This document shows positions 3,958 to 29,061 of a stretch of 35,683 nucleotides of DNA, piece after piece. The number at the start of each line of letters is the position of its first letter. Position 1 is the first letter of the stretch. Both the position numbers and the translations under genes were made by a program. This DNA is from Opitutaceae bacterium (GTDB lineage Bacteria; Verrucomicrobiota; Verrucomicrobiia; Opitutales; Opitutaceae), in NCBI GenBank assembly GCA_014879845.1, contig JACSRI010000181.1, positions 1 through 35,683 on the forward strand, written 5' to 3'. The notes beneath the pieces were generated by a model, which was given only the letters and a program-made list of their open reading frames with translations, made no database searches and was not told where the DNA came from.

Positions 3958-5904
3958 CTATCGGGCGGCCCGGGGCGGCTGCGGGCGTGCGGTCTTCACC
4001 CAGGTGCCGCGTGTCGTGACGATTTCGAGACGCCGCGCGATCTCGAGGATGGCGGCTCGCAGGCGCCAGTATTCGGACGGCCGGTTGCGCGCATGCCACA
4101 CGGCGGCGAACTCCGCCTCGAATCGCCGCAGTTCCTGCGTGACCTCGAGCGCCGGCGCGAGGCCGCGAGGCGACGTGCGGCCGCGCGCGAGGCAGATGAG
4201 GTGCGCGCCGAGCCGGTTGAACAACGCCGAGCCGCGGCACCCGAGCAGCATCTCGCGTCGCGCGAGCGGCGTAGGCGTGTCTGCTTCGGGCACGAGACGG
4301 GCGAGGCGCGCGGCTATCATGTCGAGGCGGGCAGCGGCGGCCGCGGCACGGCGCGGGTCGATTGCGAGCAAGTCGGCCGGCAGGCCGGTGCGCTCGTCCC
4401 ACCAACTCGCCGGACGATGCGGCGTCGGGTCGAGCCAAAGGGTGAACAGGCGCCACGAGACTAGGTTGAGCCGACCGGCCTCGCGCAACAGGGCCGTGAC
4501 CCGGCCGCTGGCATCACCGTGCTCGAGGCGCGCGAATGCGGCGTCGAAGGCCTCGGCGTCGGTGCCGCGCGTGTTCCAGGCCGCGGCGGCGCCGAGGAGC
4601 AGGCCGTGGGCACTGTTGCCCAGGCAGTTGATGTGCCCGCGGTCGCCCCAGTCGGTGTTGAGCAGGCCGACCGCGCCGTCGCGCCGGCCGCGTCGGGCGA
4701 AGGCGAGGATGTTGGCCGTGGCCGTATCCAGATCGTTGAGCCAGCGGTCCCAGCCGGTCACGCCCGGGCAGACATAGAAAGGGACGCGCGCTCTTTTGAA
4801 CAGGCGCGACTTGGTGTCATGCAGGTCGGCCGAATAGTCCCAGTCGAGCGCCACGACGTCGCCCGGGAGTTCGCGCACGAGTTCGGGGTGGTTGCCCACG
4901 ATGTCGCCCCAGAACATCGGCGTCGCGCCGGCCTCGCGCACGACGGCGATGAGTTTCTTGAGGAAATCGAGGTAGAGCCGGCCGGTCCCGGAGCGCGCGG
5001 CCTCGACGGCGTTGCGCCCCTTGCCGAGGTCGAAGGTCTCGTCGCAGCAGAGGTTGAACCGGCTTGAGCGGAAGAGCGGTCTCAGCTCGAGGATCATCTC
5101 GCGCACGAGCGCGAGCGACGCGTCGTTGCGCGCATCCAGCGTGTAGTGCCCCATGCGGTCCCACCAGGAGAACGGCAGCTGCGAGGCGTCGATGGGCAAC
5201 TCGTTGAGATGGTGTTTCCGCGGGCTGACCAGCGCGGTGTAGAAGTGCCCGAACGTGCTGAGCGAGGGCACGAGCTCGACGTGGTGGCGCGCGGCATAGT
5301 CGTCGATCGCACGGATGTCCTCGGCCGTGAGCGGATCGGCGCCGGCCCAGATGTCGGGATGGTTCGCGAAAGCGAAGGTGTGCTCGATGTAGAGCTGGAG
5401 GTGATTGACCTTGTAGTGCGCGAGCTTGCGGACGAGCTCGAGCAGCGTCTCGCGCGTCGGGACCTTGCCGCGCGAGATGTCGTGATACACGCCGCGCACG
5501 GGATAGTCGGGGCCGTCGTCGATCTGCAGGGCGGGAATGCGGCCGTCGAGGGCCTGGGCGACGAGCTGCGCGAGGGTCTGGACACCGTAGTACAACCCGG
5601 CCCGGCCGCCGCCTGTGATGGTGATCTGGTCGGGCGTGACCTGGATCAGGTAGTGCTCGGCGCTGGCCAGTCGCCCGACCTGAAGGAAGACCGCCCCCGC
5701 GCGCGGCGAGGCGCCCCGGCCGATGGCCGGCAGGTGCCCCACGGGCCCGGCGAGCACGGCGGCGAGGGCGCGTGCCTCGTCGTCGGCGGACCCGGGCAGG
5801 GAGGAATCGATCACGATCAGTCCGAAGCGCGCGAGATCGGCGAAGCCGGTCCGCGAACGCAGGCGCTTGGGGGTGGGGATGAGACGCAACGGGGAGCTGC
5901 TCAC
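3958..5904 (-). CDS. Glycoside hydrolase family 20-like beta-N-acetylhexosaminidase
   Basis: With the GTG start at 5904 the protein has 648 residues. An N-terminal GH20b-like domain (about 5-125, containing LTITGGG-type strands and GLYYGVQTLAQL) leads into a TIM barrel opening with DDGPDYPVRGVYHDISRGKVPT. The paired catalytic residues of GH20 appear as Asp288-Glu289 in NLCCDETFDLGKG; in this family Glu is the acid/base and Asp orients the substrate N-acetyl group. WGDIVGNHPEL and NTDWGDRGH lie in the later barrel strands. No signal peptide is seen from this start, so a cytosolic role on imported oligosaccharides is possible. The frame remains open to 6231, but the extra sequence is low-complexity and arginine-rich, so I reject the longer start. 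It is divergent from an MFS transporter, which suggests joint uptake and hydrolysis of a GlcNAc- or uronate-containing substrate (inference). Confidence 0.8.
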   Translation of the reverse strand: MSSSPLRLIPTPKRLRSRTGFADLARFGLIVIDSSLPGSADDEARALAAVLAGPVGHLPAIGRGASPRAGAVFLQVGRLASAEHYLIQVTPDQITITGGGRAGLYYGVQTLAQLVAQALDGRIPALQIDDGPDYPVRGVYHDISRGKVPTRETLLELVRKLAHYKVNHLQLYIEHTFAFANHPDIWAGADPLTAEDIRAIDDYAARHHVELVPSLSTFGHFYTALVSPRKHHLNELPIDASQLPFSWWDRMGHYTLDARNDASLALVREMILELRPLFRSSRFNLCCDETFDLGKGRNAVEAARSGTGRLYLDFLKKLIAVVREAGATPMFWGDIVGNHPELVRELPGDVVALDWDYSADLHDTKSRLFKRARVPFYVCPGVTGWDRWLNDLDTATANILAFARRGRRDGAVGLLNTDWGDRGHINCLGNSAHGLLLGAAAAWNTRGTDAEAFDAAFARLEHGDASGRVTALLREAGRLNLVSWRLFTLWLDPTPHRPASWWDERTGLPADLLAIDPRRAAAAAARLDMIAARLARLVPEADTPTPLARREMLLGCRGSALFNRLGAHLICLARGRTSPRGLAPALEVTQELRRFEAEFAAVWHARNRPSEYWRLRAAILEIARRLEIVTTRGTWVKTARPQPPRAAR

Positions 5905-6240
5905 GGGAGCGCATCGTGCGCAATCGCGCTGCACGGCCAAGCGTTTACGCGCATTCGCGGTCCCTCGGGCCGGTCGGCCCGAGCCGGAAACAACGGACAT
6001 CGAGCGAAGGTGGGCGACTCGCATGGGTGGCCCGAAACGAGACCGGCGCATCGGGTGTCGGCCGAAGCGGCGGAGGGCGCTTTTCCGAAATTTCAGGCTG
6101 GGCTTTTGAACACGTGTCCGGAATATGGCGGGCCGTCTGTCACCCCTCGTCGTTTGCCCCGGCCGTGGCCCGCGGCCGGACGCCCGACGGCGAGCGTGCG
6201 CCTCACACTCCCTAGACCAACACCCCAACACCTGGAGACC
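5905..6240. other. Intergenic region between divergent GH20 and MFS genes
   Basis: This 336-bp stretch must hold the promoters of both divergent genes. I see an AT-richer core around 6081-6130 with the perfect palindrome GAAATTTC at 6087-6094, which could be an operator core. No pair of -35/-10 boxes with good spacing stands out on either strand. The MFS ribosome binding site (CTGGAG) is at its right end. No supported gene lies inside. Confidence 0.5.
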
Positions 6241-7644
6241 ATGTCCTTCGCGACCGTAAACCAGAAGATCGGCAACTACCGCTGGACGATCTGTGCGCTG
6301 GTATTTGCCGCCACCACCATCAACTACCTGGACCGCATGGTCCTCGGCCTGCTCAAGGAGACGCTGTCCAACGACGGCGTCTTCGGCGCGAGCAAGGCCG
6401 ATCAGGAGATCAACTATTCCACCGTGGTGATCTGTTTCCAGATCGCCTACGCGCTCGGCATGCTCGCGGCCGGCAAGTTTATCGACTGGGTCGGCACCAA
6501 GCGCGGCTACGCCTACTCACTTATCGGCTGGAGCGTCGCGGCTATCGGCCACGCGTTCGGTCACCACACCTGGAGTTTCGGCTTCTGGCGCGCCGCGCTG
6601 GGCGTGACCGAGTCCGGAAACTTTCCGGCGGCGAACAAGACCATCGCCGAGTGGTTCCCGAAGAAGGAGCGCGCCTTCGCCACCGGACTCTACAATTCCG
6701 GCGCCAACGTCGGTGCGATCGTGGCTCCCCTGACCGTGCCGTATATCGCCGAGTGGTGGGGCTGGGAATGGGCGTTCATCATCACCGGCGTGGTCGGCCT
6801 CATCTGGCTGGCCTTCTGGTTCACCATGTATGAGAGCCCGGCGAACAAGCTGAAGAGCGGGCATCTCCAACAAGCCGAGTATGACTTCATCCACAGTGAC
6901 GTCGACGAGCAGCAGGTCGAAAAGGCCGAGGATGCCAAGGACAAGGTGTCGTGGTTCAAGCTGCTGACTTTCCGGCAGACCTGGGCGTTCGTGGTGGGCA
7001 AGTTCCTGACCGACCCGATCTGGTGGTTCTACCTGTTCTGGCTGCCGGGTTTCCTCGGCGGGGAAAACGCGCGCAAGACCGAGGCGTTCCTCTTGGCCAA
7101 TCCCGGCTACACCGGCGAAAAGGCGGACATCCCCGGCATCATCAGCTGGATGCTCGCGCTGGCGGTCGTGTACTCGATCTCGACGGTGGGTTCGATCTTC
7201 GGCGGATGGCTGCCCAAGAAGTTCATCAACGGCGGCATGGACTCGAACAAGGCGCGCAAGCTCGCGATGTTCATCTTCGCGCTGTTCCCGCTGGTCGTGC
7301 TGGCCGCCTCGCGCCTGGGCGCGATCAACACCTGGCTGGCGGTGCTCACCATCGGCGTCGCTTGCGCCGCCCACCAGGCTTGGTCGGCCAATATCTTCAC
7401 CACGGTCTCCGACATGTTCCCCAAGAAGACGGTGGCTTCGGTCACCGGCATCGGTGGCATGGCGGGCGCGGTCGGCGGCATCCTCATCGCCCGTGCAGCC
7501 GGTCTGCTCCTGGCGCACTTCACGCAGAAGGGCCACGTGGAGGCCGGCTACGCGATCCTCTTCGTGATCTGCGGCTCAGCCTACGTCACGGCCTGGGTGT
7601 TGATGCACCTGCTCGTGCCGAAGTTTAAGAAGATCGAGGTCTGA
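6241..7644 (+). CDS. MFS transporter, anion:cation symporter (hexuronate/ExuT-like) family
   Basis: A 467-residue polytopic inner-membrane protein with about twelve hydrophobic segments. The first helix ends in NYLDRMVLG, a pattern typical of the ACS branch (ExuT, GudP, DgoT) of the major facilitator superfamily, and the loop between helices 2 and 3 carries DWVGTKRG, the MFS D-x-x-G-x-[KR]-R-type motif. GVTESGNFPAANKTIAEWFPKKERA is a strongly ACS-like helix 4-loop region. A charged cytosolic loop (about 205-235) separates the two halves. It likely imports a sugar acid or sugar with protons. CTGGAG five bases before ATG 6241 supports the start. It is divergent from the GH20 gene and followed by a strong terminator, so it is probably a single-gene unit. 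The substrate cannot be read from the sequence. Confidence 0.88.
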   Translation: MSFATVNQKIGNYRWTICALVFAATTINYLDRMVLGLLKETLSNDGVFGASKADQEINYSTVVICFQIAYALGMLAAGKFIDWVGTKRGYAYSLIGWSVAAIGHAFGHHTWSFGFWRAALGVTESGNFPAANKTIAEWFPKKERAFATGLYNSGANVGAIVAPLTVPYIAEWWGWEWAFIITGVVGLIWLAFWFTMYESPANKLKSGHLQQAEYDFIHSDVDEQQVEKAEDAKDKVSWFKLLTFRQTWAFVVGKFLTDPIWWFYLFWLPGFLGGENARKTEAFLLANPGYTGEKADIPGIISWMLALAVVYSISTVGSIFGGWLPKKFINGGMDSNKARKLAMFIFALFPLVVLAASRLGAINTWLAVLTIGVACAAHQAWSANIFTTVSDMFPKKTVASVTGIGGMAGAVGGILIARAAGLLLAHFTQKGHVEAGYAILFVICGSAYVTAWVLMHLLVPKFKKIEV

Positions 7645-19655: not shown

Positions 19656-22334
19656 ATGAACGCTGACACCCGTGCCCTCGACGCTTCCCGCGCGGTCGCT
19701 ACACCGCTTCTGGAAACTGCCGAGATGCCTTCGACGAAAACGCCTGCCGCACCTGTCGCCGCCACGCCGCATCCCGCCGGGCCCGCTCCCGAGGCCGGCG
19801 CCGGGGCGCCGCGCCCGCGTGTGGATGGAAAATTCCTCTCCGTCGACGGCCGCCGCTTCTGGGTCAAGGGCGTGACCTACGGCACGTTCGCGCCGGATGC
19901 GGAGGGCCACCAGTTCCCGCCGCGCGCCTCGGTCGAACGCGATTTCGCGCAGATGGCGGCCAACGGGCTGAACTCCGTGCGCGTCTACACCGTGCCGCCC
20001 CGCTGGCTGCTCGACGTGGCGCAGGTCCACGGCCTGAAGGTTATGGTCGGCCTGCCTTGGGAGCAGCACATCGCCTTCCTCGGCGAGTTCGGCCGCGCCT
20101 CCTCGATCGAGCAACGCGTGCGCGAGGGCGTGCGCTCCTGCGCGAACCACCCCGCGGTGCTCTGTTTTTCCATCGGCAACGAGATCCCCGCGCCGATCTG
20201 CCGCTGGCACGGCCCGCGCGCGATCGAGCGTTTCCTGCGCCGGCTCTACGACGCGGCCAAGGAGGAGGATCCGGGTGCACTGGTCACTTACGTCAACTTC
20301 CCGTCGACGGAGTACCTGCGCCTGCACTTCCTCGATTTCATCACCTTCAACGTCTACCTCGAGAAGCAGGACCGCCTCGAGGCCTACCTCTACCGCCTGC
20401 AGAATCTCGCCGGCGACAAGCCGCTCGTCATGGCCGAGATCGGCCTCGATTCGCAGCGCAACGGTTTCGAGAAGCAGGCCTCGGTGCTGGAGTGGCAGGT
20501 GCAGACGACGTTTGCGACGGGCTGCTCCGGGGCGTTCATCTTTGCGTGGACGGACGAATGGTGGCGCGGCGGGCACGATATTCCCGACTGGGACTTCGGC
20601 CTGGTCGCGCGCGATCGCACGCCCAAGCCCGCTCTCGCGACGGTCTGCCGCGCCTTCGCGCAGGCGCCGTTCCCGCCGCGCGCAGACCTGCCGCACATCA
20701 CGGTCATCATCTGCACCTACAACGGCTCGCGCACGCTGCGCGACGCTTTTGAGGGCCTGAAGCGCGTCGAGTATCCGAGTTTCGACGTCGTGCTGGTCAA
20801 CGACGGCTCGACCGACAACGTGGCCGAGATCGCCGCGAGCTACGGCGCCACCGTCATCACCACGCCGAACCGCGGCCTGAGCTCCGCGCGCAACACCGGC
20901 ATGGAGGCCGCCAAGGGCGAGATCATCGTCTACCTCGACGACGACGCCTGGCCCGACCCGCACTGGCTGCGTTTCATCGCCGAGACCTACCTCGGCTCCA
21001 ATCACGCCGCCATGGGCGGCCCGAATCTCTCGCCGCCGCTCACCGGCGACATCGCCGACTGCGTGGACAACGCTCCCGGCGGCCCCGTCCACGTGCTCAC
21101 GAGCGACCGCATCGCCGAGCACGTGCCCGGCTGCAACATGAGTTTCCGGAAAAGCTGCCTGCAGGCCATCGGCGGTTTCGACCCGCAGTTCCGCGCCGCC
21201 GGCGACGACGTCGATGCCTGCTGGCGCATCATGGAGCGCGGTTGGACGATCGGTTTCCATCCCGCCGCGATGGTCTGGCACCACCGACGCAAGACGATCC
21301 AGACCTACTGGCGCCAGCAGCGCGGCTACGGCAAGGCCGAGGCGCTGCTCGAGCTGAAGTGGCCGGAGAAATACAACGCCGTCGGCCACGTCGGCTGGCA
21401 CGGCCGGCTCTACGGCAAGGGACTCACCCGCGTGCTCGGCCGCGTCAGCCGCATCTACCACGGCGCGTGGGGCTCGGCCGCGTTCCAGGCGCGCTACGAC
21501 ACGCACCCGAGCCTGTGGCGCGTGCTGCCCACCATGCCGGAGTGGTACCTGATCGTGGTCGCGCTCGGCATGATCTGCGCGATCACGCCGATCTGGCCGC
21601 GGCTGCTCTGGATGGCGCCGGTGTTTGTCGCCGCGCTCGGACTCACCATCGCCCAGGCCTTGCTCTCCGCTTCGCAGGCGCGTTTCAGCACGCCCGCCCG
21701 CGGGAAGAAGCTGCTCAAGCTCAAGATCGTCACCGCCTGGCTGCACATCATCCAGCCGATCGCGCGCCTGTGGGGCCGTCTGCGCCATGGCCTGCACGCC
21801 GGCCGCCTGCGCCTGCCGATGAAGATGACCTGGCCGATCGCCCGCTACCACACGAGCTGGTGCGAGAAATGGCAGATGCCCGAGGAGGTGTTGCGTAAGG
21901 TGGCGACGCGTCTGCGCGAGGACGGCGCCGTCATCATCTCCGGCGGTGATTACGATCGCTGGGACTTCGGCGTGCGCGCCGGCCTGCTCGGCGGCGCGCG
22001 CCTGCTCATGACCTGCGAGGAACACGGCGCGGGCAAGCAGCTCTTCCGCTTCATCGTGTGGCCGCGCTACTCCTTCGAGGGCATCGTCTCGGTCGTCGTC
22101 CTGGCCGTGCTGGCGTGCGGCGCGCTCTTCGACACGGAGTACAAGTTTCACGCCATCGCCTACCTGATCTTCTCGCTGCTCACGCTGCTCATCGCGTTCC
22201 GCGTCCTGCAGGAGGGCAGCGTCGCGCTCGCCGCCGTCGAGCGCGCGCTCAAGGAACCGTTCGACGCCGAGCCGGCGCCGGCGGCGCCGGTGTCGGTGGC
22301 GGATGTCTCGCCGCAGGACGCGACGAAGCAATAA
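19656..22334 (+). CDS. Glycoside hydrolase (clan GH-A type) fused to a membrane family 2 glycosyltransferase
   Basis: An 892-residue multidomain protein. Residues 1-55 are an Ala/Pro-rich tail with no signal peptide. Residues 56-340 form a TIM-barrel hydrolase related to GH2/GH17-type clan A enzymes: IGNE (Glu176, acid/base) and VMAEIG (Glu261, nucleophile), with a following FAWTDEWW. Residues 346-600 are a GT-A fold GT2 domain: VIICTYNGS, VNDGSTD, the metal-binding LDDD (428-430), the acceptor-side NMSF and AGDD (517-518), and a WRQQRGYG motif at 552-559. Two membrane regions follow (about 630-672 and 808-850), separated by a soluble part (about 700-800) that I cannot assign. The fusion suggests one protein that both extends and trims or rearranges a glycan, like the GH17-GT2 proteins of cyclic-glucan synthesis (NdvC). 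The start lacks a Shine-Dalgarno sequence. It is followed at 9 bp by the ABC exporter gene. Confidence 0.88.
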   Translation: MNADTRALDASRAVATPLLETAEMPSTKTPAAPVAATPHPAGPAPEAGAGAPRPRVDGKFLSVDGRRFWVKGVTYGTFAPDAEGHQFPPRASVERDFAQMAANGLNSVRVYTVPPRWLLDVAQVHGLKVMVGLPWEQHIAFLGEFGRASSIEQRVREGVRSCANHPAVLCFSIGNEIPAPICRWHGPRAIERFLRRLYDAAKEEDPGALVTYVNFPSTEYLRLHFLDFITFNVYLEKQDRLEAYLYRLQNLAGDKPLVMAEIGLDSQRNGFEKQASVLEWQVQTTFATGCSGAFIFAWTDEWWRGGHDIPDWDFGLVARDRTPKPALATVCRAFAQAPFPPRADLPHITVIICTYNGSRTLRDAFEGLKRVEYPSFDVVLVNDGSTDNVAEIAASYGATVITTPNRGLSSARNTGMEAAKGEIIVYLDDDAWPDPHWLRFIAETYLGSNHAAMGGPNLSPPLTGDIADCVDNAPGGPVHVLTSDRIAEHVPGCNMSFRKSCLQAIGGFDPQFRAAGDDVDACWRIMERGWTIGFHPAAMVWHHRRKTIQTYWRQQRGYGKAEALLELKWPEKYNAVGHVGWHGRLYGKGLTRVLGRVSRIYHGAWGSAAFQARYDTHPSLWRVLPTMPEWYLIVVALGMICAITPIWPRLLWMAPVFVAALGLTIAQALLSASQARFSTPARGKKLLKLKIVTAWLHIIQPIARLWGRLRHGLHAGRLRLPMKMTWPIARYHTSWCEKWQMPEEVLRKVATRLREDGAVIISGGDYDRWDFGVRAGLLGGARLLMTCEEHGAGKQLFRFIVWPRYSFEGIVSVVVLAVLACGALFDTEYKFHAIAYLIFSLLTLLIAFRVLQEGSVALAAVERALKEPFDAEPAPAAPVSVADVSPQDATKQ

Positions 22335-22343
22335 CATCGCCGC

Positions 22344-24092
22344 ATGTCCACGCCCGCCCGGCCCAAGAGCACGACCACGCTGCGTCGCCTCGCCCTGCAG
22401 GCGCGCCCGTACTGGCCGCACCTCGGCGCCCTCATGGCGCTCAGCCTGCTGGCCGTGCCGCTCTCGCTGCTCAATCCCGTCCCGTTCAAGCTCATCGTCG
22501 ACAGCGTGCTCGGCGACCACGAGCTGCCCGGCATCGTCCAGCGTATCCTGCCTGCGGGCACAGAGCGCACCAGCGCCGTCGCGGCCGGCATCGTGGCCGG
22601 GTTGATGGTCGCGATCGCCCTGCTCAAGCAGCTGCTCGACATGGGTTACGCGGTGCTGCGCACCTGGACGACGGAGAAGCTCGTGCTCGGCTTTCGCACG
22701 TCGATGTTCCGCCATTCGCAGCGGCTCTCGCTCGCCTACCACGACACGAAGGGCTCGGGCGAGGTCACCTACCGCATCCAGTACGATGCGCCGGCGATCC
22801 AGTGGATCATGGTCGACGCGCTCATCCCGCTCGCGACCTCGATCTTCACGCTCGTGTCGATGGTCGTGGTGCTCACGCGCATCGACTGGCAGCTCGCGCT
22901 CATCGCCATGGTCGTCGCGCCGGCGCTCTACGCCTCGTCGACCTTCTTCAGCAAGCGCCTGAAGGCCCACTGGCGCGAGGCCAAGCACCACGAGACCTCC
23001 GCCTACTCGGTCGTGACCGAGGTGATGGGCGCGGTGCGCGTGGTCAAGGCCTTTGCCGCGGAGGACCGCGAGCAGGAGCGCTTCGAGGCGCGCGCGCGGC
23101 GCTCGTTCCGCGAGCAGCTGCGTGTCTCGATCGTGAGCAGCCGTTTCGCGCTGGCCGTGGGGTTGACCATGGCGGCCGGCACTGCGGTCGTGCTCTATGT
23201 CGGCACGCGCCATGTGCAGGCCGGCCTGATCACGCTGGGCGACCTCGTGCTGGTGATGAGTTACCTGCCGATGCTGTATGCGCCGCTCGAGACGCTGACG
23301 CGCAGCGCGGGCAGCCTGCAGGGCTCGTTCGTGAGCGCGGAGCGCGCCTTCGAACTCCTCGACGAGGAGCCCGAGGTGAAGGAGGCCGAGCATCCGAAAA
23401 ACATCGGCCGTGCCCGCGGCGCCGTGGTTTTTGAGAACGTCAGCTTCGCCTACCGGCCCGATCGTCCCGCCATCTCGGATGTGAGTTTCGACATCCCGGC
23501 CGGCGCGCACGTCGGCATCGCCGGCCACACCGGCGCGGGCAAGTCCACGATCATCAGCCTGCTCCTGCGCCTCTACGATCCGTCGGTCGGCCGCATCCTG
23601 CTCGACGGCGTGGACTTGCGCGACCTCGCGCTCAAGGACCTGCGCAACCAGTACGCCATCGTCCTGCAGGAACCCGTGCTCTTCTCGGCGTCGATCGGCG
23701 AGAACATCGCTTATGCGCGCCCCGGTGCGACGCAGGCGCAGATCGAGGCCGCGGCCCGTGCGGCCAACGCGCACGACTTCATCTCCAAGCTCGAGAAAGG
23801 CTACGACACCGAGGTGGGCGAGCGCGGCCTGCAGCTCTCCGGTGGCGAGCGGCAGCGCATCTCGCTCGCGCGCGCATTTCTCAAGGACGCGCCGATCCTC
23901 ATCCTCGACGAGCCGACCAGTTCGGTCGACGTGAAGACCGAGGCGCTGATCATCGAGGGCCTCGAACGGCTGATGAAGGGCCGCACGTCCTTCATGATCG
24001 CGCACCGTCTGAGCACTCTCGACCTCTGCGACGTGCGCCTCGAGATCAACGGCGGCCAACTCACCTCGTTCACGTCGAAGCGCACGCCATGA
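22344..24092 (+). CDS. ABC exporter, fused permease and ATPase (MsbA/NdvA-like)
   Basis: A 582-residue type IV (exporter) ABC half-transporter. Six transmembrane helices cover about residues 20-330, with LGFRTSMFRHSQRLSLAYHDTKGSGE as a coupling region. The nucleotide-binding domain contains Walker A GHTGAGKST (394-402), the Q-loop in VLQEPVLFSAS, the signature LSGGE (498-502), Walker B ILILDE (Glu523, catalytic) and the switch His in IAHRLS. As a homodimer it would flip or export a lipid-linked or free oligosaccharide, or lipid, across the inner membrane. NdvA/ChvA-type exporters of cyclic glucans have the same architecture and size. It lies 9 bp after the GH-GT2 gene and overlaps the next gene by ATGA, so the three are cotranslated. 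Substrate is inferred from context only. Confidence 0.92.
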   Translation: MSTPARPKSTTTLRRLALQARPYWPHLGALMALSLLAVPLSLLNPVPFKLIVDSVLGDHELPGIVQRILPAGTERTSAVAAGIVAGLMVAIALLKQLLDMGYAVLRTWTTEKLVLGFRTSMFRHSQRLSLAYHDTKGSGEVTYRIQYDAPAIQWIMVDALIPLATSIFTLVSMVVVLTRIDWQLALIAMVVAPALYASSTFFSKRLKAHWREAKHHETSAYSVVTEVMGAVRVVKAFAAEDREQERFEARARRSFREQLRVSIVSSRFALAVGLTMAAGTAVVLYVGTRHVQAGLITLGDLVLVMSYLPMLYAPLETLTRSAGSLQGSFVSAERAFELLDEEPEVKEAEHPKNIGRARGAVVFENVSFAYRPDRPAISDVSFDIPAGAHVGIAGHTGAGKSTIISLLLRLYDPSVGRILLDGVDLRDLALKDLRNQYAIVLQEPVLFSASIGENIAYARPGATQAQIEAAARAANAHDFISKLEKGYDTEVGERGLQLSGGERQRISLARAFLKDAPILILDEPTSSVDVKTEALIIEGLERLMKGRTSFMIAHRLSTLDLCDVRLEINGGQLTSFTSKRTP

Positions 24093-25270
24093 AAGCCGTC
24101 GTCACCGGCATGATCGCCAACTACGCCGTCGGCGGCGTGGCGTGGGACTATGCCCAATACGCGCTCGCGCTCGAGCGGCTCGGCTTCGAGGTCTACTACC
24201 TCGAGGACACCGGCGAGATGCCCTACAACCCCGAGAAGGGCGACGTCTCCGAGGACTACTCCTATTCGCTGAAGTTTCTCGAGGAGAGCCTCGGCCTGAT
24301 GTCGCCGGCGCTCGCGCGCCGCTGGCGCGTGGTCGGCTTCGACGGTCGCGGCTACGGCGTCGACGCGAAGGAGTTCGCCGACGTGCTGCGCGAGGCCGCG
24401 CTGTTTCTCAACGTCTCCGGCTCCGCGCTCATGCGCGACGAGTATGTCGCGTGCCGCAAGAAGCTGATCATCGACACCGACCCGGGCTGGAACCATTTCC
24501 GCAACTACCCGAAGTGGGACGCCTCGCCCGGGTGGCAGGGCACGCATGGCTGGCGCGCGCACGACGTCTTCTTCACTTACGCGCAGCGCCTCGGGCGGCC
24601 GGGTTGCGCGCTTCCGGACTTCGGTATCCGCTGGTTTCCGACAGTGCCGCCCGTCGTGCGCGATTGTTGGGAAACGCCGGCGGCGTCCGGAGCCGGCACC
24701 GAGTGGACGACGATCCTGTCGTGGAACACCTACGCCAAGGGCATCGAGGGCAACGGTCGCACCTACGGCGCCAAGGAACTGGAGTTTCCCAAGATCGAGC
24801 GCGTGCCGACGCGCGTGCCGTCAGCCCGGCTCGCCATCTCCATCGCGAGCCACAACGCCCCGCGCGACGCCTGGCGCGCGCACGGCTGGCACATCCGCGA
24901 CGCGCACGCCGACTCGGCCACGGTCGCGCGCTACCGCGATTTCATCACCAGCTCGCGCGGTGAGATCAGCGTGGCAAAAAACGCCTACGTCGACACGCGG
25001 AGCGGCTGGTTCAGCTGCCGCAGCACCTGTTACCTCGCGGCCGGCCGGCCGACGGTCGTGCAGGACACGGGCTGGACGGACTTCATCCCGGCAGGCGAGG
25101 GCCTGCTGGCCTTCCGCGACGAGGCCGAGGCCGTGGCCGCGCTCGGGGAGGTCGAACGCGATTACCCGCGGCATGCACGCGCGGCGCGCGAGGTGGCGAA
25201 GAAATACTTCGACCACGCGGTCGTTCTGGGTGACATGCTGGAGAAGGCCGACGTGCCGCTCCCGCGATGA
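24089..25270 (+). CDS. Glycosyltransferase-like protein A (GT-B-type, no assigned family)
   Basis: A 393-residue cytosolic protein. The N-terminus (VTGMIANYAVGGVAWDYAQYALALERLGFEVYYLED) has the Gly-rich loop followed by a helix and strand seen in GT-B glycosyltransferases. The C-terminal part (about 290-345) reads EISVAKNAYVDTRSGWFSCRSTCYLAAGRPTVVQDTG and GEGLLAFRDEAEAVAAL, which matches the nucleotide-binding half of GT4-like enzymes. A paralogue with the same layout is encoded at 27889-29061. Sequence between residues 100 and 280 includes DTDPGWNHFRNYPKWD, possibly acceptor-binding. The start overlaps the ABC transporter stop (ATGA). I infer a sugar transfer step in the same glycan pathway; donor and acceptor are unknown. 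Confidence 0.72.
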   Translation: MKAVVTGMIANYAVGGVAWDYAQYALALERLGFEVYYLEDTGEMPYNPEKGDVSEDYSYSLKFLEESLGLMSPALARRWRVVGFDGRGYGVDAKEFADVLREAALFLNVSGSALMRDEYVACRKKLIIDTDPGWNHFRNYPKWDASPGWQGTHGWRAHDVFFTYAQRLGRPGCALPDFGIRWFPTVPPVVRDCWETPAASGAGTEWTTILSWNTYAKGIEGNGRTYGAKELEFPKIERVPTRVPSARLAISIASHNAPRDAWRAHGWHIRDAHADSATVARYRDFITSSRGEISVAKNAYVDTRSGWFSCRSTCYLAAGRPTVVQDTGWTDFIPAGEGLLAFRDEAEAVAALGEVERDYPRHARAAREVAKKYFDHAVVLGDMLEKADVPLPR

Positions 25271-25375: not shown

Positions 25376-25966
25376 ATGACTCCTGAACAACTCGGACAAA
25401 TCACCGGCGACTGGGACACCTCGAAGCTGCCCGCCAACGTGCGCGTCGGTCCGGGTTGCTGGATCGAGCGCAAGGAGAGCTTCGATCGTTTCCGCAGCAT
25501 GCAGAACCCGGGGCTCGTCCTCGGCGCGCGGGTGCGCGTGCACACCTGGACGGTGTTCAATATCGACCCGGCTGGCGCGCTGGAGGTGGGCGACGACTGC
25601 GTGCTCGTGGGCGCGACGTTCATGTGCGCCGAGCGCATCACACTCGGCCGCGGCGTGGTCGTGTCCTATCATGTCACGATCGCGGACTCGGACTTTCATC
25701 CGCTCGATCCCGAGGCGCGCAAGCTCGACGCCATCGCCAACGCGCCTTTCGGCGACCGCGGCGAGCGCCCGCCGATCAAGACCCGACCGGTCGTGATCGG
25801 CGACGGCGCGTGGATCGGCATCGGCGCGATCATCCTCAAGGGCGTCACCATCGGGAAGAACGCGCGCATCGGCGCGGGCGCCGTCGTGGTGCGCGACGTA
25901 CCGGACGGCGGCGTCGTCGCGGGCAATCCCGCCAAACCCGCCGCCACCGCCGAACTTGGCATCTGA
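25376..25966 (+). CDS. Hexapeptide-repeat (LbetaH) acyltransferase A
   Basis: A 196-residue left-handed beta-helix acyltransferase. Hexapeptide repeats run from about residue 20 to 165 (VRVGPGCWIE, LEVGDDCVLVGATF, ITLGRGVVVSYHVTIADSDFH, then VVIGDGAWIGIGAIILKGVTIGKNARIGAGAVVVRDVPDG, ending VVAGNPAK). The His in DSDFHPLD corresponds to the catalytic His of the sugar O-acetyltransferase group. The C-terminal GNPAK is the usual end of the fold. The enzyme probably transfers an acyl group, most often acetyl from acetyl-CoA, to a sugar hydroxyl or amino group in a trimer. A second paralogue lies at 26453-26998. Start ATG 25376 begins five bases after the palindromic element; no ribosome binding site is seen. 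Confidence 0.85.
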   Translation: MTPEQLGQITGDWDTSKLPANVRVGPGCWIERKESFDRFRSMQNPGLVLGARVRVHTWTVFNIDPAGALEVGDDCVLVGATFMCAERITLGRGVVVSYHVTIADSDFHPLDPEARKLDAIANAPFGDRGERPPIKTRPVVIGDGAWIGIGAIILKGVTIGKNARIGAGAVVVRDVPDGGVVAGNPAKPAATAELGI

Positions 25967-26002
25967 CTCGTCCACTAAACCCGCGACTGGGAGCGCATCT
26001 CC

Positions 26003-26275
26003 ATGGCCACCGCAATCGTCCTCCTCAAAACCGACCGCCGCAAAGTCACCGACACCGCTGAGCGCATCCTCGAGATCCCGTCCGTGAGCGAGGTTTACTC
26101 GATCTCCGGCCGGCACGACCTGATGGTGATCATCAAGTGCGAGACCGTTGACATGATCGAGTATGTCATCACCGACGCGCTGCTCAAGGTCGAGGGCGTC
26201 CTCGACAGCGAGACGATGTTCGCCTTCCGCAGCTACGAAAAGCGCGAGGCCGGCCGCGCCGTCGACGTGGATTGA
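26003..26275 (+). CDS. Stand-alone AsnC/Lrp ligand-binding (RAM) domain protein
   Basis: A 90-residue protein consisting only of the effector-binding domain of Lrp/AsnC regulators: ATAIVLLKTD, then VSEVYSISGRHDLMVIIKCETVDMIEYVITDALLKVEGVLDSETMFAF, a beta-alpha-beta ferredoxin-like RAM fold. The helix-turn-helix half is absent, and the ATG at 26003 is 36 bp after the acyltransferase stop, so it is not a truncated coding error from an obvious upstream frame. Such small single-domain proteins form dimers or octamers that bind small ligands such as amino acids. It lies between the two acyltransferase genes and may sense a metabolite or control an enzyme here. No direct function is established. 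Confidence 0.88.
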   Translation: MATAIVLLKTDRRKVTDTAERILEIPSVSEVYSISGRHDLMVIIKCETVDMIEYVITDALLKVEGVLDSETMFAFRSYEKREAGRAVDVD

Positions 26276-26289
26276 ACCTGGCGGTGTTG

Positions 26290-26437
26290 AACCACGAATG
26301 GACACGAAATCAGGCAGGAAGCCTGAACAGCTGATCGAGACCGTGAGAAGACAGAGATCGGAACGTTTCATTCGGCTCCGACAATCGGTTCCCATGGTGG
26401 CGTCGGGATTGGTGTCCGTTCGTGTTCATTCGTGGTT
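26290..26437. repeat. 148-bp element with 19-bp terminal inverted repeats
   Basis: Left end AACCACGAATGGACACGAA (26290-26308) and right end TTCGTGTTCATTCGTGGTT (26419-26437) are inverted copies with one mismatch. Both ends are built from 10-base units (ACGAATGGAC-like). An inner hairpin TCAGGC/GCCTGA lies at 26310-26326. The interior carries no gene. The right end meets the acyltransferase B start region. Size and ends resemble a non-autonomous miniature element, but no target duplication was confirmed. Confidence 0.78.
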
Positions 26438-26452
26438 CCCTTTTCTTCTGAC

Positions 26453-26998
26453 GTGACCGCCGCGCGCCATCTCGACCACGACTGGTTTCCCCGGCCGTTG
26501 CCTGACAACGTCGAGGTGGCGGAGCGCTCGTGGATCTACAGTTCGTTTGCGTTTGTGCACAACACGGCGCGGCTGCCCTCGGCCGTGCGCGTCGGGCACG
26601 ACACGGGCGTCTACAACGGCACGTTCTTCGATCTCGGCCCCCATGCCGAGGTCGAGATCGGCGACTTCTGCACGCTCGTGGGCGTGATCATGCGCACCGA
26701 CGCGCGCGTGAAGATCGGCGACTTCACCTTCCTTGCGCACGAGGTGGTGATCGCGGACTCGCCGTTCGCCATTCCGCCCGCGCCCGAACCTGCGCCGGCC
26801 GCGCCGCGCGTGCCGGCGAGCGAGAGCGCGATCGTGCTCGGCGAGAACTGCTGGGTCGGCATGGGCGCGGTGCTTCTTTCTGGCACGCATTTGGGCGAGG
26901 GCTGCGTGGTCGGCGCCGGCGCCGTCGTCAACTTCGCCGCGCCACCGTGGTCGATCATCGCGGGCAATCCCGCGCGTGTCGTGGGCACGGCGCGTTGA
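26453..26998 (+). CDS. Hexapeptide-repeat (LbetaH) acyltransferase B
   Basis: A paralogue of the acyltransferase at 25376-25966, 181 residues from the GTG at 26453. Hexapeptide repeats are clear: VRVGHDTGVYNGTFF, AEVEIGDFCTLVGVIM, VKIGDFTFLAHEVVIADSPF, then IVLGENCWVGMGAVLLSGTHLGEGCVVGAGAVVNF, ending WSIIAGNPARVVG. Compared with copy A it has an Ala/Pro-rich insert (about 115-130) where A has the DSDFHPLD region, and the catalytic His there is not obvious (DSPFAIPP). The start is uncertain: a GTG at 26432 lies inside the right arm of the 148-bp element, and 26453 is the first start outside it. No Shine-Dalgarno sequence is seen for either. Probably an acyltransferase of the same glycan pathway, or a degenerate partner subunit. 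Confidence 0.76.
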   Translation: MTAARHLDHDWFPRPLPDNVEVAERSWIYSSFAFVHNTARLPSAVRVGHDTGVYNGTFFDLGPHAEVEIGDFCTLVGVIMRTDARVKIGDFTFLAHEVVIADSPFAIPPAPEPAPAAPRVPASESAIVLGENCWVGMGAVLLSGTHLGEGCVVGAGAVVNFAAPPWSIIAGNPARVVGTAR

Positions 26999-27143
26999 CC
27001 GCGCGGCTGGCGGGCCGACCCGCCGGCGCGGCGGCGCGTCACCTGGATTTTACGGAAACCGATCTTGGTTCGCTGCTGTCGCAGGGTCAGAATGGCGACC
27101 GCAAGGCGGCCGCGAGTTTCACGCGCCATCCGTGCTCATCTCC

Positions 27144-27869
27144 ATGTCCTCGGTCTACGACACGGCGTTCTTCCTCAAGCACCAGGCATCAGCCCGGAGC
27201 AGCGCGGATGTCGTGGTCCCGCATCTTGTCGACTTGGTTCGTCCGGCCTGCGTGCTCGACCTCGGGTGCGGCCTGGGCACGTGGCTGGCCGCGTTCCGTG
27301 CCCGGGGTGTGGCGGAGGTGTGTGGCGTGGACGGTGAGTACGTGCAGCGCGAATTGCTTGAGATCCCGTCAGTGCACTTCGTCGCGGCCGACCTGACTCG
27401 TCCCCTCGATCTCGGTCGCCGGTTTGACCTCGCGCTCTCGCTCGAGGTGGCGGAGCACCTCGACGAGGGGGCCGCGCCCGTCCTGGTCGATTCGCTCATC
27501 CGCCATGCCCCGGTCGTCGCCTTTTCGGCGGCCGTGCCCGGCCAGGGTGGGGAACACCACGTGAACTGCCGATGGCCGGACTACTGGGCGGAGCTTTTTC
27601 GTGCGCGCGGGTACGAGGTCGTCGATTGCCTCCGGCCCGTGATCTGGGGCCGGACCGATGTCGACTGGTGGTATCAGCAGAATCTCCTGCTCTTCGTCGA
27701 ACGTCGCCATCTTGCCGCGACGCCGCGCCTGGCCGAGGCGCACCGGCTGCATCCAGCGCCGCGCCTGCTCGCGCGGGTGCATCCGTGTCTGCTCGAGGAG
27801 GTGCTGGCCTGGGGCATGGAGCAGGCGCGTGCACGATGGAGCGTGCCTCCGCCGGACGCGGCGAAGTAG
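27144..27869 (+). CDS. Class I SAM-dependent methyltransferase
   Basis: A 241-residue protein with motif I VLDLGCGLGTWLAAF (Asp39 to Gly45), acidic residue in CGVDGEYV (motif II) and DLALSLEVAEHLDEG (motif IV region), consistent with an S-adenosylmethionine methyltransferase of the UbiE/WbdD-like group that modifies small molecules or glycans. The C-terminal part includes VNCRWPDYWAELFRARGYEVVDCLRP and a WWYQQN stretch, a pattern seen in methyltransferases of polysaccharide loci. The start ATG 27144 (MSSVYDTAFFLK) is preferred because it begins conserved sequence; the frame is open to 26976, but that stretch is Arg/Gly-rich and overlaps the acyltransferase B stop. It lies in the glycan cluster between acyltransferase B and glycosyltransferase B. 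Confidence 0.8.
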   Translation: MSSVYDTAFFLKHQASARSSADVVVPHLVDLVRPACVLDLGCGLGTWLAAFRARGVAEVCGVDGEYVQRELLEIPSVHFVAADLTRPLDLGRRFDLALSLEVAEHLDEGAAPVLVDSLIRHAPVVAFSAAVPGQGGEHHVNCRWPDYWAELFRARGYEVVDCLRPVIWGRTDVDWWYQQNLLLFVERRHLAATPRLAEAHRLHPAPRLLARVHPCLLEEVLAWGMEQARARWSVPPPDAAK

Positions 27870-27888
27870 GCTTCCGCCTTCGGATCCC

Positions 27889-29061
27889 ATGGCGGAACGT
27901 CTTCGCATCATCGTCCTCGGCTACGTCGTGCGCGGCCCACTCGGAGGCATGGCCTGGCACCACCTGCAGTATGTGCAAGGGTTGGCGCGCCTCGGCCATG
28001 ACGTGTGGTTCGTCGAGGACAGCGACGACTACCCATGCTGCTACGATCCGGAGCGGCAGGTCACGGACGGTGATCCGTCCTTCGGTCTGCGCTTCGCCGC
28101 GCGCGAGCTCGAGCGGATCGGACTTCGCGACCGCTGGGCCTATTGGGACCAGCACACGGGGCGGTGGCTGGGCCCGCACGGTGCCCAGATGGCGGATACG
28201 TGCCGGGCGGCCGATGTCGTGGTCAATCTCTGCGGCGTGAATCCGCTGCGGGAGTGGACGCAGGTGGCGCCGGTGCGCATCCTCGTCGACGGCGACCCGG
28301 TCTTCACCCAGGTGCGCAACCTCACCGACGCCTGGGCGCGCGAGCGCACGCGTCGGCACAACGCCTTCTTCACCTACGGCGAGAACTTCGGTCGGTCGGG
28401 CTGCCTCATGCCGGACGACGGGTTTCCCTGGAAACCGATCCGGCAGCCCGTGGTCGTCGAGGCGCTCGCAGTGTCTCCGCCGCGGCCCGACGGCGCCTTC
28501 TCCACGGTGATGCAGTGGCGCAGCTACGCGGCGCGCGAGTGGGCCGGAGTCACCTACGGCCAGAAGTCGGAGACCTTCCCGGAATTCCTCGAACTCCCGG
28601 GCCGGTCCGGCGCGCCCCTGCTGCTCGCAGCGGCGGGAGTCGCAGAACAGCGCGAGAGTTTGCTGGCGCGCGGATGGCGGCTCACCGACGCCGCCGCGGC
28701 GACCCGCGACGTGCCGACCTACGAGGCGTTCCTGCGCGGGTCGAAAGCGGAGTGGTCGGTGGCCAAGCAAGGGTACGTCGTCGCGCGCAGCGGTTGGTTC
28801 AGCGAGCGGTCGTGTGCTTACCTCGCGATGGGTCGCCCGGTCGTCGTGCAGGACACGGGCCTGGCCGGCCTCTTTCCGCTGGGCGAGGGTGTGTTGACCT
28901 TTGGCGACTGCGACGAGGCGGTCGCGGCTTTGCGCGAGGTGAACCAGCGCTATGCGTTCCACTGCCATCGGGCGCGGTCCTGGGTCGAGGAGCACTTCGA
29001 CGCGTCGCGCATCCTGAGTTCCATGCTCGAGCGTGGAGCGAGCGCGGCGGGTTCGGCTTAG
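27889..29061 (+). CDS. Glycosyltransferase-like protein B (paralogue of A)
   Basis: A 390-residue protein sharing its layout with the gene at 24089-25270: N-terminal VVRGPLGGMAWHHLQYVQGLARLGHDVWFVED, and C-terminal EWSVAKQGYVVARSGWFSERSCAYLAMGRPVVVQDTG, followed by a GEGVLTFGDCDEAVAAL stretch. The middle contains LVDGDPVFTQVRNLTDAW and a YGENFGRSGCLMPDDGF region where copy A has FTYAQRLGRPGCALPDFG, so both halves are homologous end to end. It is likely another GT-B-type sugar transferase. The start ATG 27889 gives the aligned N-terminus. It is the last gene of the cluster, followed by convergent tsaD. Confidence 0.74.
   Translation: MAERLRIIVLGYVVRGPLGGMAWHHLQYVQGLARLGHDVWFVEDSDDYPCCYDPERQVTDGDPSFGLRFAARELERIGLRDRWAYWDQHTGRWLGPHGAQMADTCRAADVVVNLCGVNPLREWTQVAPVRILVDGDPVFTQVRNLTDAWARERTRRHNAFFTYGENFGRSGCLMPDDGFPWKPIRQPVVVEALAVSPPRPDGAFSTVMQWRSYAAREWAGVTYGQKSETFPEFLELPGRSGAPLLLAAAGVAEQRESLLARGWRLTDAAAATRDVPTYEAFLRGSKAEWSVAKQGYVVARSGWFSERSCAYLAMGRPVVVQDTGLAGLFPLGEGVLTFGDCDEAVAALREVNQRYAFHCHRARSWVEEHFDASRILSSMLERGASAAGSA

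Follow-up and report, generated by a model that had tools for sequence, protein, structure and literature searches.

What would a glycoside hydrolase (GH) do on the side of the membrane where glycans are built? Glycosidases are normally kept from that cytosolic side, Cgs being an exception. A gene in the 35,683-nucleotide stretch of Opitutaceae contig JACSRI010000181.1 analysed here (the window) raises this question. It was originally predicted to fuse a hydrolase to a GT2 glycosyltransferase in one protein that lacks a signal peptide, with the hydrolase acting on the nascent chain, for example as a transglycosidase.

A hydrolase and a glycosyltransferase in one protein

The reading frame spans positions 19656..22334 of the forward strand, exactly as first described, and encodes 892 residues from an ATG start; none of the 33 in-frame codons upstream is an ATG, GTG or TTG start. 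Its translation, Pfam matches, motifs and the architecture of its relatives define a clan GH-A barrel (residues ~50–338), a linker of ~9 residues, a GT2 domain and a membrane-anchored C-terminus. The motifs named in the original prediction all sit where it placed them (IGNE at 173–176, MAEIG at 259–263 with Glu261, LDDD at 427–430, GDD at 516–518 and RQQRG at 553–557).

We confirm that the hydrolase and GT2 domains are fused in one protein. As the original prediction had proposed, we looked for the same fusion across genomes and found it to be recurrent. Among the best 80 of 520 genome relatives, the two domains share one frame in 78 and lie in adjacent frames in two (L105 and L125), where the following frame, a little further along, encodes part of the GT2 domain. 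Given this arrangement we reject the idea that the fusion arose by chance or misassembly; the invariance of catalytic and GT2 motif residues across many phyla also speaks against chance. The linker is 7–11 residues long in all 78 single-frame fusions. The titles of the relatives span 14 bacterial phylum-level groups together with archaea-labelled metagenome-assembled genomes, and the cultivated carriers include Algoriphagus zhangzhouensis and Segetibacter koreensis. The GH domain is about as conserved as the GT2 domain, with mean pairwise identities of 0.60 and 0.65, respectively, compared with 0.23–0.56 for the parts after residue 555.

Among the viral contigs scanned there were 30 pattern matches, none of which encodes a relative. 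In the plasmid collection 697 records match, none covering 80% of the query, and the 20 listed match the GT2 part only. In the single-contig relatives G003, G004 and G020, the flanking genes TsaD and DUF2851 are separated by ~55 kb to 1.5 Mb, so no empty site can be defined. A search of the open-access literature found no description of this particular fusion, which does not prove that none is in print.

The GT2 domain (residues ~346–620; 20691..21515, forward strand) matches PF00535 (Glycos_transf_2) at residues 349–446 (E 8.4e-28; 97.8 bits against a cut-off of 23.3) and PF13641 at 346–555. Its motifs are complete, as predicted: D383, D428, D430, D517, D518, D520 and Q555 are invariant in 58 of 58 aligned relatives, as is Y558 (this alignment omits L136, in which the central part of the GT2 match is missing within one frame). 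We take D383, D428, D430, D517 and D518 to fill the NDP-sugar and metal-binding and catalytic Asp roles. The closest NCBIfam model to the domain is that of MftF (TIGR03965; 134.8 bits, well under the cut-off of 280), a protein with no GH domain to our knowledge. The accessible part of the source describes MftF as a 470-residue GT2 protein, the mycofactocin oligoglucosyltransferase, that adds up to nine β-1,4-linked glucoses (PMC7491314).

The hydrolase barrel and its predicted catalytic pair

The (α/β)8 barrel (19803..20669, forward strand) matches Pfam Glyco_hydro_2_C (PF02836) at residues 56–330 (E 1.8e-14; 54 bits against a cut-off of 21), as do all 51 members of an alignment of its relatives, A3 (E up to 0.001). 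No Pfam match to the N-terminal sugar-binding or Ig-like sandwich domains of GH2 enzymes was found in the window protein, and upstream of the barrel there are only ~50 residues, modelled with low confidence. The GH domain itself is modelled with a pLDDT of 94.2.

The barrel superposes on GH157 and GH2 structures at Z ~29–33. The top structural match among those listed is the β-1,3-glucanase LaGH157 (PDB 9fz9, 9g4n and 9g5g; Z 32.7, rmsd 2.5, 298 residues aligned, 18% identity), and the other LaGH157 entries (Z 31.0 and 30.8) are level with the galacturonidases and glucuronidases of GH2 (Z 31.0). LaGH157 has the barrel fold and both catalytic Glu positions in common with the window protein but is a 537-residue GH protein, a chain length that leaves no GT2 domain. 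The A3 profile matches LaGH157 (5.1e-16), GH2 enzymes, GH158 and the GH72 enzyme GAS2. Pfam Glyco_hydro_72 is matched by 21 of the 51 A3 members (E up to 0.001), with the window protein below the cut-off (14.8 bits against 25.9).

The original prediction had named GH2, GH5 and GH17 as families for comparison. Among the matches listed, the best solved families are GH157 and GH2, not GH5 or GH17. The matches listed in full-length fold searches are dominated by the GH barrel, and GH5 is represented there by two GH5_18 entries, at ranks 13 and 30 of one search, with an rmsd of ~11, too loose for use. GH17 gave no Pfam match in the window protein or the A3 members and does not occur among the structural matches listed.

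The predicted acid/base, Glu176 (20181..20183, forward strand), belongs to an Asn-Glu pair after strand β4, and the predicted nucleophile, Glu261 (20436..20438, forward strand), lies on strand β7. No substitution of Asn175, Glu176 or Glu261 occurs in any of the 58 aligned relatives; the Glu pair is also invariant in all 22 members of a second set, which overlaps the first in that the window protein is common to both. In the structural alignment Glu176 falls on the Asn-Glu of both LaGH157 and the GH2 enzymes, and Glu261 on LaGH157 Glu224, the residue mutated to Ala in 9g4n. The model strands 168–175 and 257–262 bear these three residues at their ends. The complete retaining-type Glu pair of the original prediction is backed, only indirectly, by the superposition of the barrel on GH157 and GH2 enzymes and by the alignment of both Glu with the catalytic Glu of these enzymes. 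Sequence and model together place the domain in clan GH-A as a retaining-type barrel with a predicted catalytic pair.

Asn-x-Lys is the motif of GH2 β-glucuronidases. The GH2 β-glucuronidases and galacturonidases have the barrel fold (Z ~29–31) and the Asn-Glu and Glu positions in common with the window protein. However, the N-terminal sandwich domains of GH2 enzymes are missing, and the glucuronidases 5c70 and 6u7i carry Asn-Lys-Lys (NKK) where the window protein has Asp-Trp-x (DWx). For want of Asn-x-Lys we rejected a β-glucuronidase identity. Distant fold relatives, at 18% identity, suggest that the GH domain may be specific for glucans.

Membrane placement and gene neighbourhood

The predicted absence of a signal peptide is borne out: 19-residue hydropathy means peak at 0.32 for segments starting at residues 1–80, and at 0.92 for those starting at residues 1–340. 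A simple hydropathy scan, which overlooked a lipoprotein-like start in the control L076, found the window protein and 72 of 72 complete relatives free of hydrophobic segments up to the point where GT2 ends. Two natural variants of ~690 residues (L074 and L075) have no hydrophobic segment anywhere. Because no such segment occurs up to the end of the GT2 domain, the GH domain would share the cytosolic side with the NDP-sugar-using GT2 domain, and this placement, foreseen in the original prediction, is supported by both the scan and the two variants. Hydropathy and the model predict transmembrane helices 1 and 2 at residues ~628–673 (21537..21674; model helices 630–642 and 648–673) and helices 3 and 4 at ~806–866 (22071..22253; model helices 807–824 and 832–866), all on the forward strand. 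Between the two pairs is a conserved region (residues ~683–805; 21702..22070, forward strand) that is modelled as a long helix and a small α/β domain and has no Pfam match. Q700, R704, R708 and Q795 in this region are invariant in 58 of 58 relatives, and W735, D770 and E788 are conserved in 57.

The GH17–GT2 cyclic β-glucan synthases NdvB and Orphan of pseudomonads are likewise membrane proteins with the GH barrel ahead of GT2, and their GH domain is proposed to remodel the glucan that GT2 makes (PMC10237404, in its accessible part), a role comparable to the one proposed for the window protein. The same part of that paper describes a signal peptide before GH17 and three membrane helices before GT2, making the GH domain periplasmic, whereas in the window protein the two domains are joined by ~nine residues that contain no membrane segment. 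The GT2 motif also differs, being Q(Q/R)xRW in NdvB/Orphan (PMC10237404) and QQRGY at residues 554–558 of the window protein. Orphans of P. syringae without a signal peptide have a predicted cytoplasmic GH17 with a distorted model, which the authors take as non-functional (PMC10237404). An external GH domain of the NdvB kind would fit the common domain order (PMC10237404), and hydropathy scans can overlook weak signals, as with L076. However, with no counterpart of the three NdvB/Orphan helices in any of the 72 relatives, and with soluble variants in L074 and L075, we regard this arrangement as exceedingly improbable and reject it on topology.

Nine base pairs after the fusion gene is a gene for an MsbA-like ABC exporter whose single chain combines membrane and ATPase domains (22344..24092; PF00664 and PF00005), for which the top NCBIfam model is MsbA (421 bits, under the cut-off of 602). 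The next gene overlaps the exporter stop by 4 bp and encodes a putative glycosyltransferase with a weak Glyco_trans_1_2 match (24089..25270; PF13524, E 8.4e-5, 23 bits against a cut-off of 25). It is followed by genes for two hexapeptide-repeat acyltransferases (25376..25966 and 26432..26998; PF00132 in both), a methyltransferase (26976..27869; PF13489) and another putative glycosyltransferase with a weak match (27658..29061; PF13524, E 1.4e-5, 25.5 bits against 25), the true start of which is probably internal. All of these genes are on the forward strand. By a strict test, 37 of the 64 testable loci have a gene for an MsbA-like ABC exporter downstream of the fusion, and no ABC exporter is found in the other 27, which include all nine testable Desulfobacterota-type loci. 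ABC exporter-like genes occupy the +1 position relative to the fusion gene in 42 cases and the −1 position in none.

Possible roles of the hydrolase domain

We see an even chance that the protein is a bifunctional glycan-assembly enzyme at the inner face of the cytoplasmic membrane, its GH domain acting on the chain made by GT2 and the ABC exporter exporting the product. The GT2 domain would make a β-linked oligosaccharide, probably glucan-like, from an NDP-sugar, and the cytosolic GH domain would process the nascent chain with retention. We infer that transglycosylation, which would branch, cyclise or transfer the chain, is its most likely action, with hydrolytic trimming the next option. The co-encoded putative glycosyltransferases, acyltransferases and methyltransferase could then decorate the product, and the adjacent MsbA-like exporter would move it across the membrane. 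Cgs unites a glycosyltransferase and a retaining transglycosidase in one membrane-anchored protein with cytoplasmic soluble domains, as the window protein would if this reading is right; the product of Cgs is exported via an ABC transporter. The domains differ, being GT84, GH189 and GH94 in Cgs and GT2 and a clan GH-A barrel in the window protein, which has no Pfam match to GH94 up to E 1.

The nearest solved relatives among the matches listed are hydrolytic, comprising GH2 exo-glycosidases and the endo-β-1,3-glucanase families GH157 (PMC10229575) and GH158 (PMC7157763), both as given in the accessible parts of those papers. The GH domain could accordingly be a plain cytosolic hydrolase that sets the length of the GT2 chain or releases it, with no transglycosylation; the available part of a paper on Cgs describes a separate length-control domain there (PMC10901819). 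We find this reading credible but doubtful: cutting beside the maker of the chain would be wasteful unless tightly controlled, and the 21 A3 members that match Glyco_hydro_72 resemble GH72 glucanosyltransferases.

It is unlikely that the GH domain works on some other cytosolic or membrane-bound compound, for instance an oligosaccharide taken up by the cell or a lipid-linked intermediate of another enzyme, with the fusion merely coupling two steps of a pathway. The further putative glycosyltransferases of the cluster could supply such a substrate, but loci without these neighbours exist and the linker is fixed at 7–11 residues (78 of 78), both of which suggest joint action of GH and GT2. Since GH activity is so far predicted only, the domain could also be a catalytically dead glycan-binding or structural module; invariance of Asn175, Glu176 and Glu261 in 58 of 58 relatives at ~60% mean domain identity makes this very improbable. 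Transglycosidase action on the nascent chain is the reading that we prefer, and a compact, confidently modelled GH domain with located predicted catalytic residues makes the question testable.

Beyond this locus, we tentatively suggest a multi-phylum class of glycan synthases in which a cytosolic GH-A transglycosidase held tight to GT2 may cyclise or branch a β-glucan-like chain before export by an MsbA-like transporter. The fusion of a retaining barrel to a glycosyltransferase that builds chains, conserved at ~60% mean identity among relatives with titles from 14 bacterial phylum-level groups, points to a common glycan, on the surface or secreted, that is named by none of the NCBIfam models matched, and the gene cluster suggests steps for its export and decoration. 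If the GH domain transglycosylates, the fusion would offer a one-gene handle on branched or cyclic glucans made from sugar nucleotides.

Domain organization and conservation of the fusion

The gene at 19656–22334 (+ strand) opens with ATG and encodes an 892-residue protein in which Pfam places a GH2-type glycoside hydrolase (GH) barrel at residues 56–330 and a glycosyltransferase (GT2) domain at residues 346–555. All of the motifs named in the original prediction are present at the expected residues, and third-position G+C is 0.91, close to the 0.93 and 0.90 of the next two genes. The N-terminal ~50 residues are Ala/Pro-rich, modelled with low confidence and not hydrophobic by hydropathy, in agreement with the proposed lack of a signal peptide. 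The 33 in-frame codons upstream of the ATG contain no ATG, GTG or TTG start, so no signal peptide begun at such a start has been overlooked.

Aligning the window protein with 57 of 69 complete relatives (58 full-length proteins in all) shows that Asn175, Glu176 and Glu261 of the GH domain are invariant, and likewise Asp383, Asp428, Asp430, Asp517, Asp518 and Gln555 of the GT2 domain. Across these proteins GH and GT2 average 0.60 and 0.65 pairwise identity, more than the other parts (0.56 in residues 556–620, 0.44 in the C-terminal region, 0.36 and 0.23 in the two membrane regions and 0.08 in the N-terminal tail); both domains have thus evolved under comparable constraint. The pairwise identities of the two domains are moderately correlated (r = 0.51), a value on which we do not rely. 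The linker between the HMM-aligned domain ends is 7–11 residues long in all 78 single-frame fusions described below, and 9 residues in 49 of them. The C-terminal region (residues 683–805, window 21702–22070) is flanked on each side by a pair of predicted membrane helices; it has no Pfam match, and Gln, Arg, Trp, Asp and Glu positions within it are invariant or nearly so.

Occurrence across genomes

A relatives search of 38 genomes, including that of the organism itself, found a close homologue (76% identity) in only one other genome, G013, with ten more giving weak matches only (best E 4.8e-11). In a sample of the phylum, matches with E no higher than 1e-20 occur in 38 of 387 genomes, the organism's own among them; with its own match set aside, the matched places number 38. 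Of these, 37 fall in open frames of at least 688 residues and the last, in genome G236, in a frame of 560. Long stretches were fetched for 21 loci, one from G013 and 20 from the phylum sample, and 20 of the 21 encode GH and GT2 in one ORF. The remaining locus, in G236, is GH-only (L076:4704–6383): this unfused relative from another class of the same phylum has, by eye, a lipoprotein-like N terminus and is possibly an exported cousin of the fused domain.

The original prediction had suggested looking for the same fusion across genomes, and it does recur. Public genome contigs yielded at least 520 confirmed relatives, and among the best 80, which as top matches to the query reveal little of remote or unfused relatives, 78 carry GH and GT2 in one ORF. 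The C-terminal region was detected in 74 of these 78, and three of the other four reach a contig end; at locus L103 this region lies in a different frame. At L105 and L125 the ORF comprises GH alone, with part of the GT2 domain in the next frame.

Record titles of the best 80, tallied by hand, name Desulfobacterota-type organisms (13, including Deltaproteobacteria labels), Actinomycetota (11), Gemmatimonadota (10), Bacteroidota (8), Chloroflexota (7), Acidobacteriota (6), archaea (6), Cyanobacteriota and Planctomycetota (5 each), Verrucomicrobiota, Nitrospirota and Pseudomonadota (2 each) and Tectomicrobia, Eisenbacteria and Ignavibacteria (1 each), most of these records being metagenome-assembled genomes (MAGs), which may be mislabelled. 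The nine non-MAG records belong to Bacteroidota, Cyanobacteriota, Desulfobacterota and Pseudomonadota. The archaea-labelled MAG loci are L097, L129, L132, L137, L148 and L149; in L097, L137 and L149 an epimerase-like cluster gene (family taken from one representative) lies directly upstream of the fusion.

Fold and membrane side of the hydrolase domain

For the GH domain, modelled with 50 of the best 80 relatives, mean pLDDT is 94.2 and pTM 0.92 (full-length model 86.3 and 0.85). Foldseek and VIA-align 2 place LaGH157 first (9g4n, Z 32.7, rmsd 2.5, 298 aligned), whose structures were solved with laminari-oligosaccharides; GH2, one of the families named for comparison in the original prediction, comes close behind, its galacturonidases and glucuronidases (Z ~29–31) scoring level with the other LaGH157 entries (Z 31.0 and 30.8). 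A family profile detects LaGH157 (5.1e-16), GH2 enzymes (3e-12 at best), GH158 (8.7e-9) and the GH72 glucanosyltransferase GAS2 (3.3e-5). Glu261 aligns with LaGH157 Glu224, which is replaced by Ala in 9g4n, and with the equivalent Glu in galacturonidase 6ncw and in glucuronidases 5c70 and 6u7i; Asn175-Glu176 aligns with the Asn-Glu of the same four enzymes. In GH158 the corresponding N136, E137 and E220 are each required for activity (excerpt of PMC7157763), and GH157 acts on linear β-1,3-glucan (excerpt of PMC10229575). The GH157 and GH158 likeness, together with Asp-Trp-x where glucuronidases have Asn-Lys-Lys, favours β-glucan as the probable substrate by analogy with distant relatives.

A hydropathy scan (segment threshold 1.6) of 72 complete fusions found no segment before the end of GT2 in any of them. 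Beyond GT2, 30 fusions have four segments, another 30 have three, nine have two, two have one, and a single fusion, probably the 1475-residue ORF L153, has eight. The scan found no segment in L076 despite its lipoprotein-like start; it can thus miss weak signals and is not to be leaned on alone. Natural ~690-residue variants with GH and GT2 (L074:7862–9928 and L075:9230–11302) are free of membrane or hydrophobic segments and may represent a soluble version of the enzyme; judged by eye, they retain a remnant of the C-terminal domain. GT2 domains using NDP-sugars sit in the cytosol, and GH, a few residues away, should be cytosolic too. Both the scan and the segment-free variants support the predicted cytosolic placement of the hydrolase.

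The nearest described architecture, the GH17–GT2 NdvB/Orphan proteins, has its GH outside the membrane; Pseudomonas syringae forms whose GH17 is predicted to be cytoplasmic are also noted, with a distorted model that the authors took as non-functional (both from an excerpt of PMC10237404). Our search of the open-access literature found no description of the present fusion. Fourteen NCBIfam models match any of the 58 aligned proteins at E up to 1e-10; all are glycosyltransferase models and none describes a GH–GT fusion. Every NCBIfam match of the window protein falls under its cut-off.

Gene neighbourhood and proposed role

An MsbA-like ABC exporter gene (22344–24092) follows the fusion gene after 9 bp. 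Its product scores 421.2 bits against NCBIfam MsbA (cut-off 602) and nearly as much, 410.7 bits, against the 'cyanophycin metabolism-associated ABC transporter' (cut-off 880). Beyond it lie a putative glycosyltransferase gene (4-bp overlap), two hexapeptide acyltransferase genes, a methyltransferase gene and another putative glycosyltransferase gene. The 465-bp gap between the hexapeptide transferase genes (25967–26431) wholly contains no ORF of at least 120 residues. Elsewhere in the window, 5146–7644 encodes an 832-residue major facilitator protein with two passing MFS_1 stretches, the best starting only at residue 386; the N-terminal half may therefore be of another kind.

Genes were called crudely, taking the longest ORF first, and antisense ORFs displaced some real genes; both exporter counts are therefore rough and probably low. 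Clustering gave 59 exporter-like genes in 53 of 101 loci, with 42 of the genes at position +1, 12 at +2 and none at −1. A strict test, which required BLAST E of 1e-40 or lower on the same strand and no more than 6.5 kb away, was applied to those 64 of the 80 loci that extend 2.5 kb or more downstream. Of these, 37 have an exporter, which begins within 300 bp in 25 of them, and 27 have none, including all nine testable Desulfobacterota-type loci. Some exporters found by clustering, those of L102 and L121 for example, are missed by the strict test. The 114 operon-like genes scanned, out of 183, include 26 ABC exporters, 16 hexapeptide transferases, 12 APH-type kinases, five epimerase-family proteins and the split GT2 part of L125. 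APH-family phosphotransferases, an unusual partner, thus recur in these glycan clusters (L141:6634–7608, L114:5500–6624 and other related loci); their phosphorylation target might be a sugar or lipid acceptor.

The NCBIfam model closest to the GT2 domain is MftF (134.8 bits, under the 280 cut-off), which adds up to nine β-1,4-glucoses (excerpt of PMC7491314). The best-supported reading is of a cytosolic, membrane-associated enzyme in which GT2 would make a β-linked chain and the adjoining GH would remodel it before export. The analysis shows the architecture, its conservation, the topology as read from sequence and the gene neighbourhood, whereas the donor sugar, the linkage, transglycosylation and product export are what we infer. 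We assign the fusion to the glycosyltransferase–glycosidase glycan synthases, as a cytosolic-side member that combines its parts in a new way.
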